The translations under genes were made by a program, and so were the position numbers. DNA of 64,000 nt from Ferrovibrio terrae (GTDB lineage Bacteria; Pseudomonadota; Alphaproteobacteria; Ferrovibrionales; Ferrovibrionaceae), in assembly GCF_007197755.1 (NCBI RefSeq), contig NZ_CP041636.1:1276001-1340000 (forward strand), given 5' to 3'. The notes beneath the pieces were generated by a model, which saw only the letters and a list, made by a program, of their open reading frames with translations, was not told where the DNA came from and did not search any database. The first letter of the stretch is position 1. The number at the start of each line of letters is the position of its first letter. Positions 41,572-62,527 of the stretch are shown piece after piece.

Positions 41572-41658
41572 GCCCGCTTGGCGGAATTGGTAGACGCACG
41601 GGACTTAAAATCCCGAGGCCGCAAGGCCGTGCCGGTTCGAGTCCGGCAGCGGGCACCA
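41572..41658 (+). tRNA. tRNA-Leu (anticodon UAA)
   Basis: The 87-base gene has acceptor arms GCCCGCT / AGCGGGC, an anticodon stem CGGGA / TCCCG with loop CTTAAAA reading TAA (UAA), a long variable arm (GAGGCCGCAAGGCCGT), the T-arm GCCGGTTCGAGTCCGGC, and an encoded CCA at 41656-41658. The long variable arm and UAA fit tRNA-Leu. Confidence 0.97.
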
Positions 41659-57181: not shown

Positions 57182-57250
57182 GCCCGGCCATTCCGGATTG
57201 TGAACCCTTTTATTAAAGAACAAAAAGAGAATATAAAGCCAGATGGGTCG

Positions 57251-57264
57251 GTTTCACGTGAAAC
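57251..57264. promoter_or_regulatory. parS-like site 1, perfect 14-bp palindrome
   Basis: GTTTCACGTGAAAC, the core of the ParB site consensus TGTTTCACGTGAAACA, in the gap between the DUF4149 gene and mnmG. Only the outermost base on each side differs. ParB encoded at 61583 is the likely binder. Confidence 0.8.
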
Positions 57265-57270
57265 GGGGTC

Positions 57271-57286
57271 TGTTTCCCGTGCAACC
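57271..57286. promoter_or_regulatory. Degenerate parS-like site
   Basis: TGTTTCCCGTGCAACC lies six bases beyond site 1's end, with three differences from the consensus. It may be a weak second site or chance, since the neighbouring parS is a perfect core. Confidence 0.4.
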
Positions 57287-57344
57287 CGGGTCTGTGGGCG
57301 ATTCCCTTTGACGACCCGGCCCCCTGTGCGTAAAACCCGCGCCC

Positions 57345-59237
57345 ATGCAGGACAGGTTCGATGTCATCGTGATCGGCGGCGGCCATGCCGGCTGCGAGGC
57401 CGCAGCGGCCGCGGCGCGCATGGGCGCGCGCACCGCGCTGGTGACGCACAAGCCCGAGACCATCGGCGAGATGTCGTGCAACCCCGCCATCGGTGGCCTG
57501 GCCAAAGGCCATCTGGTGCGCGAGATCGATGCGCTGGATGGCGTGATGGGCCGCGTGGCCGATGCCGCCGGCATCCAGTTCCGCATGCTCAACAAGTCGA
57601 AGGGCCCCGCGGTGCGCGGCCCGCGCACGCAGGCGGATCGTAAGCTGTATCGCCAGGCGATGCAGGCAGTGCTGGCCGAGCAGCAGAACCTGACCATCAT
57701 CGGCGCTGCGGTTGAAGACATCCGCATCGAGCAGGGCGAGATCAAAGGCGTCGAATGCGGCGATGGTCGTTTCATCGCCGCGCCGAAGGTGATCCTCACC
57801 ACCGGCACATTCCTGCGTGGTCTGATCCATATCGGCGAAGAGAAGATTCCGGCCGGCCGCGTCGGTGAGGCGCCGTCGCTCGGCCTCTCGAAAACCCTTG
57901 AGAATTGCGGCTTTTCGCTGGGTCGCCTGAAAACCGGCACGCCGCCGCGTCTCGATGGCCGCACGATCAACTGGTCGGCGCTCGAGATGCAGAGCGCCGA
58001 CGATCCGCCGGTGCCGTTCAGCTTCCTGACGCAGCAGATCACCACGCCGCAGATTCAATGCGGCGTGACCTATACGTCTGAGGCCGGCCATGCGCTGATC
58101 CGCGACAACCTGCATCGCGCGCCGATGTATTCCGGCCAGATCGAAGGCACCGGGCCGCGCTACTGCCCGTCGATCGAGGACAAGGTGGTGCGCTTCGCGC
58201 AGCGCGACCGCCATCAGATCTTCCTTGAGCCGGAAGGGCTGGATGACGACACCGTCTATCCGAACGGCATTTCCACCTCGCTCCCCAGGGATGTGCAGGC
58301 CGGCCTGCTGAAGACCATCCCGGGTCTGGAGCGGGCCGTGATGCTGCGGCCGGGCTATGCCATCGAATACGACTTCGTCGATCCACGTGAACTGAAGCCC
58401 ACGCTGGAGACAAAACGCCAGCCCGGGCTGTATCTGGCCGGCCAGATCAATGGCACGACCGGCTATGAAGAAGCCGCCGCGCAAGGGCTCATCGCGGGCC
58501 TGAATGCGGCCATTTCTGCCGGAAATCAGGGAAATTCCAGAGAAACTGCGCCCTTCATTCTCGGCCGTGCCGATGCCTATATCGGCGTGCTGATCGACGA
58601 CCTGGTCACGCTGGGCACCCGCGAACCCTACCGCATGTTCACCAGCCGGGCGGAATACCGCCTCAGCTTGCGCGCCGACAATGCCGACCAGCGCCTGACC
58701 CCGCTGGGGCTCAAGCTGGGCTGTATCGGGGTTTCCCGTGAAACCGCCTGGACCGCCAAGGATATCGCGCTGACCGAGGCCCGCCGGCTGGTGCGCGAGC
58801 TGAAAATGACCCCGCCTGAACTGGTCAAGCGCGGTTTTCCGGTGAATCAGGACGGCCAGTTGCGCTCGGCCGCCATGCTGCTGGGCTATCCGGACATGAA
58901 TGTGGCCCGGTTGAGCGGGATCTGGCCCGAACTGGCCGGGCTTTCACCCGAGATCATCGAGCAGGTCGAGATCGACGGGCTGTACGCCGGCTATATGGAG
59001 CGCCAGGAGGCCGACATCGTCGCCTTCCGCAAGGATGAAGGCCTGATCCTGCCCGAAAGCCTGGAGTATGACGCGGTCGGCGGGCTGTCGAACGAGGTGC
59101 GCGCCAAGCTGAAGCAGCACCGCCCCGGCACGCTGGGGCAGGCGGCGCGGATTTCCGGCGTCACGCCGGCGGCGCTCTCGGCCCTGCTGGGATACGTAAA
59201 AAAGGCCAAGCGGGACGGTGCCGAAGCAGCTGAATAA
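57345..59237 (+). CDS. mnmG: tRNA uridine-5-carboxymethylaminomethyl modification enzyme MnmG (GidA)
   Basis: FAD-dependent partner of MnmE. The 630-residue protein starts [27 protein letters not shown] with the dinucleotide fold, then [51 protein letters not shown], and [22 protein letters not shown]. The last part is helical and binds MnmE and tRNA. It begins the mnmG-rsmG-parAB gene order; a parS-like sequence lies within the coding part. Confidence 0.98.
58731..58744. promoter_or_regulatory. parS-like site inside mnmG
   Basis: GTTTCCCGTGAAAC differs from the 14-bp parS core by one base. It lies within the mnmG coding sequence, which codes for VSRET there. In Caulobacter-type systems parS sites also occur inside genes near parAB. 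Confidence 0.55.
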
Positions 59238-59261
59238 AGCAATTTCAATAACTTAAGTACC

Positions 59262-59295
59262 AAAAGGGGATGTTTCACGTGAAACATCCCCTTTT
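59262..59295. promoter_or_regulatory. parS site 2 (perfect 16-bp consensus) in a 34-bp perfect palindrome, possibly also the mnmG terminator
   Basis: TGTTTCACGTGAAACA is at 59271-59286, identical to the ParB-site consensus. It is extended on both sides by GGGGA / TCCCC and AAAA / TTTT, so bases 59262-59295 form a perfect palindrome with no unpaired centre. It is 25 bases after the mnmG stop. The transcript would fold into a long G+C stem followed by TTTTT (59292-59296), so it could also stop transcription. Confidence 0.9.
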
Positions 59296-59381
59296 TCGTG
59301 TCCCAGAAAGGTCTCGCCCGCGCCCAACAAAAGCCGGGTAGCATCGGCACCATAAACGGCGAAAAACGAGGGAGACGCCCC

Positions 59382-59822
59382 ATGACCGGCCTACCGGTAG
59401 CAGGAACCCCCACAGAAGCCCCCGGCCTGATCGTGCCGGTGCTGCGCTATCGCGATGCGCCGGCGATGATCGAGTGGCTGTGCAAGACCTTCAGCTTCGA
59501 GAAACACCTTGTCGTGCCCGACGAGGAGGGGCGGATCGTGCATGCCCAGCTTTGCTACGGCGACGAGATGATCATGCTTGGCTCGGTGATGGAGTCGGAA
59601 TTTGGCCGCCACATGACCCAGCCGGACCAGACCGGCGGCCGCGCCACCATCAGCATCTATGTCGTGGTGCCCGATGCTGACCTGCATTACGCCCGGGTGC
59701 GCGCCGCCGAGGCCGAGATCCTGATCGATATCCGGGACGAGGATTACGGCGGCCGCGGTTTCACGTGTCGCGACCCCGAAGGCCATATCTGGTCCTTCGG
59801 GACCTATGATCCCTGGAAATAA
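59382..59822 (+). CDS. VOC-family (glyoxalase/bleomycin-resistance-like) protein
   Basis: A 146-residue protein starting MTGLPVAGTPTEAPGLIVPVLRYRD. The VOC pattern: PVLRYRDAPAMIEWLCKTFSF, VHAQLCYGDEMIMLGSV, ISIYVVVPDADLHYARV and YGGRGFTCRDPEGHIWSFGTY. It is probably a metal-dependent lyase, dioxygenase or a resistance protein; the substrate is unknown. GGGAG precedes the ATG. It lies between mnmG and rsmG, breaking the usual gidA-gidB order. Confidence 0.9.
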   Translation: MTGLPVAGTPTEAPGLIVPVLRYRDAPAMIEWLCKTFSFEKHLVVPDEEGRIVHAQLCYGDEMIMLGSVMESEFGRHMTQPDQTGGRATISIYVVVPDADLHYARVRAAEAEILIDIRDEDYGGRGFTCRDPEGHIWSFGTYDPWK

Positions 59823-59838
59823 GCGGAAAACGGGCGGG

Positions 59839-59852
59839 TTTCACGGGAAACA
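59839..59852. promoter_or_regulatory. parS-like site after the VOC gene
   Basis: GTTTCACGGGAAAC has one mismatch to the parS core and lies in a gap of about 110 bases before rsmG. A half-site, GTTTCACGTG, also lies in the VOC gene at 59758-59767. Confidence 0.5.
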
Positions 59853-59931: not shown

Positions 59932-60564
59932 ATGACGCCCGCAGATTTCCAGACTGCCACCGACTGCAGCGACGCCGCCATCGCGCGGCTCGAAGCCTAT
60001 GCCGCGCTCATCAACAAATGGCAGAAGGCGATCAACCTGGTGGCGCCGAAAACACTGCCCGAGCTATGGTCGCGGCACTTCCTCGATTCCGCGCAGCTGC
60101 TCGAGCATGCGCCGAAAGACACCATGCGCTGGCTCGATCTCGGATCGGGCGGCGGCTTCCCGGGCCTCGTCATTGCTGCACTTTTCGATGGTTATGTTCA
60201 TCTGGTCGAAAGCGATCAGCGCAAATCCACCTTCCTGCGTGAGGCCGCGCGCGCCATGAATGTGCAGGCCACCGTCCACGTGAAACGCATCGAGGCGGTC
60301 GATCCCGCCGATCTGCACAAAGCCATGGGCGGTGCGCCGCAGGTGATCTCGGCCCGCGCCCTGGCGCCGCTCCATGAGCTGATCGGCCTGGCGCAGCCGC
60401 TGGCCGGACCTGATACGGTCTATCTGTTTCCCAAGGGACGTAATGCCGAGGATGAATTGACCGAGGCGCGGCGATATTGGACACTTCCCGCAGCTGAGAA
60501 GCTGCCGAGCCGGACCGATCCGGAAGCCAGCATCCTGCTTCTCAGGGGAATGGAAGCCAAGTGA
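59932..60564 (+). CDS. rsmG: 16S rRNA (guanine-527-N7)-methyltransferase RsmG (GidB)
   Basis: A 210-residue methyltransferase that makes 7-methylguanine 527 in 16S rRNA. It has INLVAPKTLPELWSRHFLDS, the SAM-binding WLDLGSGGGFPGLVIAAL, VHLVESDQRKSTFLREAA, and VISARALAPLHELI. The ATG at 59932 is used; a short in-frame extension to 59896 is not conserved. Its stop overlaps the parA GTG by four bases (GTGA). Confidence 0.97.
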   Translation: MTPADFQTATDCSDAAIARLEAYAALINKWQKAINLVAPKTLPELWSRHFLDSAQLLEHAPKDTMRWLDLGSGGGFPGLVIAALFDGYVHLVESDQRKSTFLREAARAMNVQATVHVKRIEAVDPADLHKAMGGAPQVISARALAPLHELIGLAQPLAGPDTVYLFPKGRNAEDELTEARRYWTLPAAEKLPSRTDPEASILLLRGMEAK

Positions 60565-61460
60565 ACGGTACAGAACAAGAACATCCTGCCGAAGGCGGCG
60601 CCTGGGGTGACGACAGCACCCTGAATGCCGAACTGGAGGCTGGCAGTCCGCAGGCGAAAGTGGCGCCGCCACGACAGGGCCGCGTGCTGGCCATCGCCAA
60701 CCAGAAGGGCGGGGTGGGCAAGACCACGACGGCGATCAATCTCGCCACGGCTTTGGCCGCCGTTGGCGAACGCGTGCTGCTGATCGACAGCGATCCGCAG
60801 GGCAATGCCTCGACGGGCCTGGGCCTCACGCATGAGGAACGCGACTTCGGCACCTACGAATTGCTGATGGGCGCGGCCGAACTGCACGAGACGATACGGC
60901 CCACGAAAGTCCCCAATCTTTCCATCGTGCCGGCCAATGTCGAGCTGGCCGGTGCGGAGCTTGAGATGATGGATCTCGAGCATCGCACCCATCGCCTCAA
61001 ACATGCGATCGAGGGCCGGCTCGCCGACTTCGACCACATCCTGATCGACTGCCCGCCATCGCTCACCCTGCTCACCGTCAATGCGATGGTGGGATCGGAT
61101 GCCGTGCTGGTGCCGCTGCAATGCGAGTTCTTTGCGCTCGAAGGTTTGTCGCAGCTTCTGAGAACAGTGGAGCGCGTGCGCACCACGCTGAACCCGACGC
61201 TGGATGTGCAGGGCGTGGTGCTGACCATGTTCGACAAGCGCAACAACCTGTCCGACCAGGTGGCGGCCGACGTGCGCGGCTTCCTCGGCGAGAAGGTCTA
61301 CGAGACGGTGATCCCGCGCAACGTCCGCATCTCGGAAGCGCCGAGCCATGGCGTGCCGGCGCTGATCTACGATCATCGCGCGCCCGGCAGCACGGCCTAC
61401 ATGGCGCTGGCGCGCGAGGTGATCAAACGCGAACAGGCTTTGCGCGACGCGGCAGAGTGA
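60561..61460 (+). CDS. parA: Chromosome-partitioning ATPase ParA
   Basis: A 299-residue deviant Walker-type ATPase with a disordered acidic N-terminal tail (about 38 residues). Motifs: IANQKGGVGKTTTAINLATAL, LLIDSDPQGNASTGLG, ILIDCPPSLTLLTVNAM, then QCEFFALEGLSQL. It moves ParB-bound origins apart. A GTG start overlaps rsmG. It forms an operon with parB downstream, separated by about 120 bases with a repeat. Confidence 0.97.
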   Translation: MNGTEQEHPAEGGAWGDDSTLNAELEAGSPQAKVAPPRQGRVLAIANQKGGVGKTTTAINLATALAAVGERVLLIDSDPQGNASTGLGLTHEERDFGTYELLMGAAELHETIRPTKVPNLSIVPANVELAGAELEMMDLEHRTHRLKHAIEGRLADFDHILIDCPPSLTLLTVNAMVGSDAVLVPLQCEFFALEGLSQLLRTVERVRTTLNPTLDVQGVVLTMFDKRNNLSDQVAADVRGFLGEKVYETVIPRNVRISEAPSHGVPALIYDHRAPGSTAYMALAREVIKREQALRDAAE

Positions 61461-61559: not shown

Positions 61560-61582
61560 AAGTAGGGTACAGAGGACAGAGT

Positions 61583-62527
61583 ATGATCGACGATCCGAAA
61601 CGACGCGGCCTGGGCAGAGGCCTGGCCGCATTGATGGGCGAGCCGGCGCCGGGCTCCGAAGCCGCCGCCGCGCGTAGCGCCGCCGCCACCGGCGTGCGCG
61701 AAATCCCCATTGAGCAGCTCAAGCCGAACCCGTATCAGCCGCGCAAGGTCTTCAACAAGGACGCGCTGGAAGAACTGGCGCAGTCGATCAAGGCCAAGGG
61801 CGTGCTGCAGCCGCTGCTGGTGCGCCGCGCCAAGGACGGGCAGGGCTACGAGATCATCGCCGGCGAGCGTCGCTGGCGCGCCTCGCAGCTGGCCAAGATC
61901 CATGCCGTGCCGGTGGTGATCAAGGAGATCACCGACCGCGACGCCGTCGAGATCGGCCTGATCGAGAACTTGCAGCGCGAGGATCTCAATCCGGTGGAAG
62001 AGGCCGGCGCCTTCCTGCAGCTGTCGGAAGAATTCGGCTACAGCCAGGACCAGATCGCCCAGGTGATCGGCAAGAGCCGCAGCCATGTCACCAATATCCT
62101 GCGCCTGCTGCAGCTGCCGAAATCGGTGATCACGCTGGTCATCACCGGCAAGCTGACAGCCGGCCAGGCCCGCCCGCTGATCGGCCATCCGCTCGCCGAG
62201 CAGCTCGCCCAGCGCATCATCGAGGGCCAGCTCACCGCGCGTCAGGTGGAAAAGCTGGTCGCGGTCGGCCGTGAGGTCGGCACGCCGCAGGCCGCGAAGA
62301 AGGGCGGCCGTCCCGCCGGTGCCGCCAAGCCCAAGGCGGCGAACGAGTCCGCGCCGGCGCGCAAGGATGCCGACACGCTGGCGTTTGAGCGCGGAATGGC
62401 GGCGGCGCTTGGCATGAAGGTCGAGATCGAGGCCGAGCCCGGCAACCCGGAAGCCGGCCGGCTGGTGGTGCATTACCGCAAGCTCGAACAGCTGGATGAG
62501 CTGGCCAAGAAACTGAGCCGGCGCTGA
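61583..62527 (+). CDS. parB: Chromosome-partitioning protein ParB
   Basis: A 314-residue parS-binding protein and CTPase. Order: KRRGLGRGLAALMG at the N-terminus, IPIEQLKPNPYQPRKVFN, EIIAGERRWRASQLA (the CTP-binding GERR motif), LIENLQREDLNPVEEA, then the helix-turn-helix IAQVIGKSRSHVTNILRLLQLP and a dimerising C-terminus. The parS cluster lies 1.3-4.3 kb upstream. The ATG at 61583 gives the usual N-terminal ParA-contacting tail. Confidence 0.97.
   Translation: MIDDPKRRGLGRGLAALMGEPAPGSEAAAARSAAATGVREIPIEQLKPNPYQPRKVFNKDALEELAQSIKAKGVLQPLLVRRAKDGQGYEIIAGERRWRASQLAKIHAVPVVIKEITDRDAVEIGLIENLQREDLNPVEEAGAFLQLSEEFGYSQDQIAQVIGKSRSHVTNILRLLQLPKSVITLVITGKLTAGQARPLIGHPLAEQLAQRIIEGQLTARQVEKLVAVGREVGTPQAAKKGGRPAGAAKPKAANESAPARKDADTLAFERGMAAALGMKVEIEAEPGNPEAGRLVVHYRKLEQLDELAKKLSRR

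Follow-up and report, generated by a model that had tools for sequence, protein, structure and literature searches.

Locus and palindrome

The window analysed here, a stretch of 64,000 nucleotides from Ferrovibrio terrae, contains a perfect 34-bp palindrome between mnmG and the VOC, rsmG, parA and parB genes, all four of which lie downstream of it on the same strand. The features of this region are the following, in window positions.

57250 to 57265, no strand: near-parS site with two mismatches, before mnmG (consensus match)
57345 to 59237, + strand: mnmG, the gene preceding the hairpin (TIGR00136, 826 bits, cut-off 525)
59262 to 59295, no strand: perfect 34-bp palindrome (sequence, palindrome search)
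59266 to 59291, + strand: GC-armed hairpin GGGGATGTTTCACGTGAAACATCCCC, putative terminator stem-loop (folding, terminator score)
59271 to 59286, no strand: exact parS consensus at the palindrome centre, the sole exact copy in the genome
59292 to 59296, + strand: T5 run (U-tract) past the stem (sequence)
59382 to 59822, + strand: glyoxalase/VOC-superfamily gene (PF00903)
59837 to 59852, no strand: near-parS site with two mismatches, before rsmG (similar site in G008, G010, G012 and G013)
59932 to 60564, + strand: rsmG (TIGR00138)
60561 to 61460, + strand: parA (profile and domain matches)
61580 to 62527, + strand: parB with canonical domains (ParB_N, HTH_ParB, ParB_C)

The palindrome reads AAAAGGGGA-TGTTTCACGTGAAACA-TCCCCTTTT (in full AAAAGGGGATGTTTCACGTGAAACATCCCCTTTT, with one further T next), carries A4 and T4 at its two ends and is separated by 24 nt from the end of mnmG. 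Its symmetry stops at 34 bp, being flanked by C at 59261 and T at 59296, and it is the longest perfect palindrome of the window, the two runners-up measuring 18 bp each. An earlier sequence-only reading had placed the parS consensus at the exact centre of a perfect palindrome at 59262-59295, and both the description and the coordinates proved correct: the exact 16-bp consensus is precisely centred. The same reading had the palindrome end in T residues after mnmG, which is confirmed by the T5 run that closes the palindrome end; CGTG comes next, so the U-tract is short.

Terminator-like properties

The element resembles an intrinsic (Rho-independent) terminator in its GC-armed stem, its short loop and its T-run just past a stop codon. 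The RNA folds into a stable 15-bp stem with a 4-nt loop at -22.7 kcal/mol, compared with -8.2 (sd 2.2) for shuffled sequences, none of 200 being as good; the T-run directly past this stem is, with five residues, on the short side, and the whole structure lies beyond a gene 3' end. It differs from an intrinsic terminator in that its inner stem is a predicted protein-binding site, with the AT-rich parS forming the top of the stem.

With a d'Aubenton-Carafa-type terminator score, which is usable for ranks and contrasts only, the palindrome reaches 36.5 in the forward and 28.4 in the reverse direction, and is fourth among the 8 site-strands scoring above 15 in the window, where any stem was admitted and G-T pairs were allowed. 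In four one-strand Markov controls, the number of such site-strands was 1, 0, 0 and 0. Two other best-scoring places of the window each follow closely on a stop codon (38972 and 22780). Outside the window, the score was applied to perfect or one-mismatch arms, and in the genus and class samples to perfect arms only. A simple terminator scan of the window did not list the 34-bp element, probably because the Ts were counted as stem. Membership of a known RNA family was rejected, as an Rfam search of the window matched a tRNA at 41572-41655 alone.

parS sites and ParB

The palindrome core matches the 16-bp chromosomal parS consensus with 0 mismatches, and the genome encodes a cognate canonical ParB (ParB_N, HTH_ParB and ParB_C; best solved relatives 6t1f/7bm8), 2.3 kb downstream of the palindrome. 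A whole-genome search of the 4.26 Mb found 1 exact copy of TGTTTCACGTGAAACA and 1 copy with one mismatch. Within the window, five parS-like places with at most three mismatches were found, compared with 0.08 expected, and all of them fall within 57250-59852. One of these, at 58730-58745 in mnmG (three mismatches), has counterparts in related species; this site and the one at 59837-59852 are perhaps weaker ParB sites.

Dispersed parS sites of the genus show a further regularity, a second box GAAC that starts 6 nt past the 16-bp parS at 21 site-sides among 52 sites and 5 nt past it at 4 (G005-G013, loci L210-L249). Outside the genus, GAAC at 6 nt was seen 3 times among 131 sites. The second near-exact parS of the window genome, TGTTACACGTGAAACA (L002, G000:C1:3907185), also has GAAC 6 nt further on and, judged by eye, shares its accB-side position with parS+GAAC sites of G008, G010 and G012 (L196, L197, L203). 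G011 carries parS+GAAC sites in tandem with a spacing of about 34 bp; one such site (L208) is flanked by genes that, by eye, are probably cas9 and alaS. The combination may represent a bipartite parS, or a second protein may have its site there. A different kind of accumulation was seen in G247, a 1.8-Mb genome of the class (L150, L282-L285), with 127 matches to a parS+T5 pattern, nested T-runs being counted repeatedly; these are clustered and include parS variants such as TGTTTCACGAGAAACA.

Conservation within the genus

mnmG scored above its cut-off in 17 of 18 genomes of the family, and 17 full mnmG loci from 16 genomes were compared, the locus of G001 being truncated and G007 having two. 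Four species, the window genome G000 together with G008, G010 and G012, carry the palindrome at equal distance after mnmG. They form a clade (support 100/99) with G013 as sister, and a VOC gene adjoins mnmG in exactly this palindrome-bearing clade (4 of the 17 loci read). Pairwise among the four species, the 16 core columns are invariant (96/96), each arm is identical at 48/54 positions, and the flanks agree at 102/144 before (0.71) and 286/473 after the element (0.61). One G-C pair of the arm is replaced by T-A in G008. G012 has an A-C in place of one stem pair and has lost the outermost pair too, and with the broken stem pair its terminator score in the mnmG direction is only 2.9. The covariation within these four sequences amounts to one compensatory pair, that of G008, and lacks significance, since 124 of 500 shuffles did as well.

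Among 53 distinct exact parS sites from 10 genomes of the genus, 9 of 106 site-strands scored above 0, and 8 of these 9 belong to the four elements 3' of mnmG. Seven loci of other genera have a parS or near-parS 29-90 nt past the mnmG stop, seemingly in the first codons of rsmG (by eye). A parS apparently within the first rsmG codons, reading Val-Ser-Arg-Glu-Thr, was likewise seen by eye in many relatives (L023-L102); the rsmG of the window has none in its first codons.

G013 possesses a degenerate parS after mnmG, which was considered as an ancestor of the palindrome and rejected, since its 16 letters are identical to those of the degenerate site that precedes rsmG in G012. Because the two sites correspond, the palindrome and the VOC gene probably entered together, as an insertion between mnmG and the degenerate pre-rsmG site.

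parS and terminators in other lineages

A general link between parS and terminators was rejected: among 385 genomes of the class, parS followed by T5 occurred in 51 and parS with A5, at a similar count, in 47, and none of 226 parS site-strands at 80 MnmG loci (L023-L102) scored above 0. By these measures, a parS site does not as a rule double as a terminator. In a class sample, from which sites near the ends of stretches were skipped, 17 of 212 site-strands scored above 0, and just two places exceeded 20, the window element and a site in G060. This genome, from another family, has a 34-bp palindrome of its own, AAAAGGCGC...GCGCCTTTT.

Of 317 genomes in the order of G060, 37 matched a pattern search. 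Among the 30 matching loci that were scored (7 of the 37 being without a locus), 8 genomes exceeded 30, one of them with an arm mismatch, and all 8 sites adjoin rho, with a convergent quinone reductase gene on the other side in 7 of the 7 loci where that side was covered; NCBIfam profiles confirmed rho for 2 of these loci and the quinone reductase for 2. rho scored above cut-off in 50 of 55 genomes of the family, and 9 of these 50 rho regions, with G503 added to the previous 8, hold a parS palindrome with a T-run. In G548 the parS palindrome lies 273 nt past rho, behind another hairpin. The 39 other rho regions read in frame lacked TTTCACGTGAAA over 400 nt, or as far as the stretch extended, and many of them, by eye, have an ordinary hairpin there; G537 and G544 carry a partial parS beside a hairpin, outside the stem. 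Among the 50 regions, G501 was unparsed and G504 and G538 were caught in the wrong frame, G504 being scored separately and G538 left unscored.

Arm covariation at the rho locus is strong and compensatory. The arms differ between genomes (CCCC, GGCGC, GGGCTG, GGGTGG) yet stay complementary: across the outer nine positions of the nine sites, 77 of 81 cells are paired compared with 59.9 (sd 2.5) after shuffling, and 7 extra pair types occur compared with 2.3, both reached by 0 of 10000 shuffles, a significance that is overstated, as the shuffling ignores relatedness.

Wider recurrence was assessed in 398 Pseudomonadota genomes, 17 of which contain parS with GC3 and T4. Nine of these 17 have complementary arms, with at least 4 pairs beyond the 14-bp core, and all nine exceed a score of 30 on one strand or both. 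When A4 replaced T4 as a control, 9 genomes matched and none had more than 3 pairs. The difference between T4 and A4 is based on few genomes (17 versus 9) and gives a two-sided Fisher value of 0.009, or 0.022 without the two discovery genomes and 0.044 when counted by family. The seven new genomes, some of whose gene neighbours were assigned by eye, belong to the same phylum, not the same class, and represent four families outside it. In G1001 and G1003 the site comes after a LivF-like gene, which scored below the cut-off for LivF, and before mnmG (confirmed in G1003). G901 and G1009 have it where tag and an amidohydrolase-like gene, a weak family match, converge; in G1033 it stands between that amidohydrolase-like gene and glyQ, and it follows cysQ in G846 and a Xaa-Pro dipeptidase gene in G896. 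According to passages of PMC5521831, tag is also among the genes adjoining parS3/parS4 in P. aeruginosa.

Discussion

We consider it probable, at roughly three in four, that this is one element with two uses, a parS that has been put to further use as an intrinsic-terminator stem after mnmG. In the DNA duplex, the central 16 bp would serve as the ParB nucleation site, as suggested by the consensus match and the canonical ParB. In the RNA, the mnmG transcript would fold the GC-lengthened palindrome into a stem which, together with the U-run, may act as an intrinsic terminator and would separate mnmG from VOC-rsmG-parA-parB. The likely evolutionary route would be economy of sequence: since parS already is a perfect inverted repeat, GC arms and a T-run suffice to make a terminator of it when it lies past a gene. 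The dual use in ParB loading and mnmG termination had been proposed in the sequence-only reading, and this part gained support, albeit from sequence only, through the canonical parB 2.3 kb away, the hairpin and T-run past the stop codon, their retention in four species and the recurrence with other arms above the control level. Interference between ParB and termination, the second part of that proposal, is unsupported.

ParB would load onto duplex DNA and termination would take place through the nascent RNA, and probably both uses exist side by side with no special regulation. Passages of PMC10681803 describe Bacillus ParB-DNA clusters that are crossed in vitro by transcribing RNA polymerase with virtually unchanged processivity and, at the highest ParB level, a loss of speed of about 20%, and a passage of PMC6238139 states that active transcription does not perturb the assembly of partition complexes; together, these reports make coexistence likelier than conflict. 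A regulated terminator, in which ParB occupancy alters read-through into VOC-rsmG-parA-parB in an attenuation-like feedback, seems unlikely to us. Every downstream gene through parB does lie on the same strand, and ParB represses promoters beside two parS sites in Pseudomonas aeruginosa (passages of PMC5521831), but polymerase passes ParB clusters in vitro, and the occurrences at rho, cysQ, pepQ and LivF-like genes have no parAB directly after them in the loci read, which means that the fusion can do without a regulatory role. Equally doubtful is the broader proposal of a recurrent, selected Pseudomonadota class of parS-terminators that couples ParB loading to termination, in which ParB at parS would alter how the hairpin forms or how polymerase is arrested and, in the clade of the window, would set mnmG read-through into VOC-rsmG-parA-parB as a parAB feedback from centromere occupancy.

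Somewhat less probable again is a parS extended for reasons of DNA, whose long palindrome would assist the loading of ParB or adopt a cruciform shape, with a T-run present by chance. Such a function would fit the perfect DNA palindrome with its A4 and T4 ends, the scores on both strands and the 5-pair extensions without a T-run at some other parS sites of the genus, but long arms accompany T-runs (9/17) and not A-runs (0/9), the sites are placed beyond gene 3' ends, and arm extension does not exceed 6 pairs in 131 sites from outside the genus. Slightly weaker still is the idea of a plain terminator that has inherited its resemblance to parS and is no longer used by ParB. Other near-parS copies nearby could make the window copy a spare one; the element is, however, the sole exact parS of the genome, and its core is invariant in the four clade species, whose flanks have diverged to 0.71 and 0.61. 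Template switching is a mutational process that perfects palindromes, and arm complementarity kept by it rather than by selection, which would equally be expected to yield the one compensatory change that the clade shows, in G008, is the least probable account, as it predicts neither T-runs nor gene-end placement nor the short arms of most parS sites.

As a chromosomal ParABS parS, the window site is typical in its 16-bp consensus and in the canonical parB and parA nearby, but it is embedded in a longer palindrome that has GC arms and a U-tract and follows a gene, which sets it apart from most parS sites examined. The nearest analogue is found in Neisseria, where close inverted pairs of DUS act as rho-independent terminators, as described in passages of PMC2397512, a protein-recognised repeat doubling there, too, as a terminator stem. 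Two DUS copies pair with each other in that system, whereas a single palindromic site pairs with itself here and the partner system is chromosome segregation; the window stem being one parS palindrome and not two uptake-sequence copies, the element works like a DUS-type terminator but is not a member of this type. Titles and abstract openings of the open-licence literature, a limited scope, yielded no description of a parS inside an intrinsic terminator. The passages available from PMC2346475, PMC4368675, PMC5521831 and PMC9040568 mention no parS within an intrinsic terminator, and those from PMC10681803, PMC6238139 and PMC5521831 contain no test of a parS that itself is a terminator. What appears to be new here, on evidence of novelty that is weak, is a parS that by its letters would double as an intrinsic terminator.

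If the preferred reading of one element with two uses is true, the segregation and transcription machines would use one common 34-bp sequence, and a centromere site would be transcribed in full whenever its terminator works. The lineages with unrelated arms would then be natural replicates for asking whether the stopping of polymerase on parS is tolerated by ParB loading, exploited by it or harmful to it.
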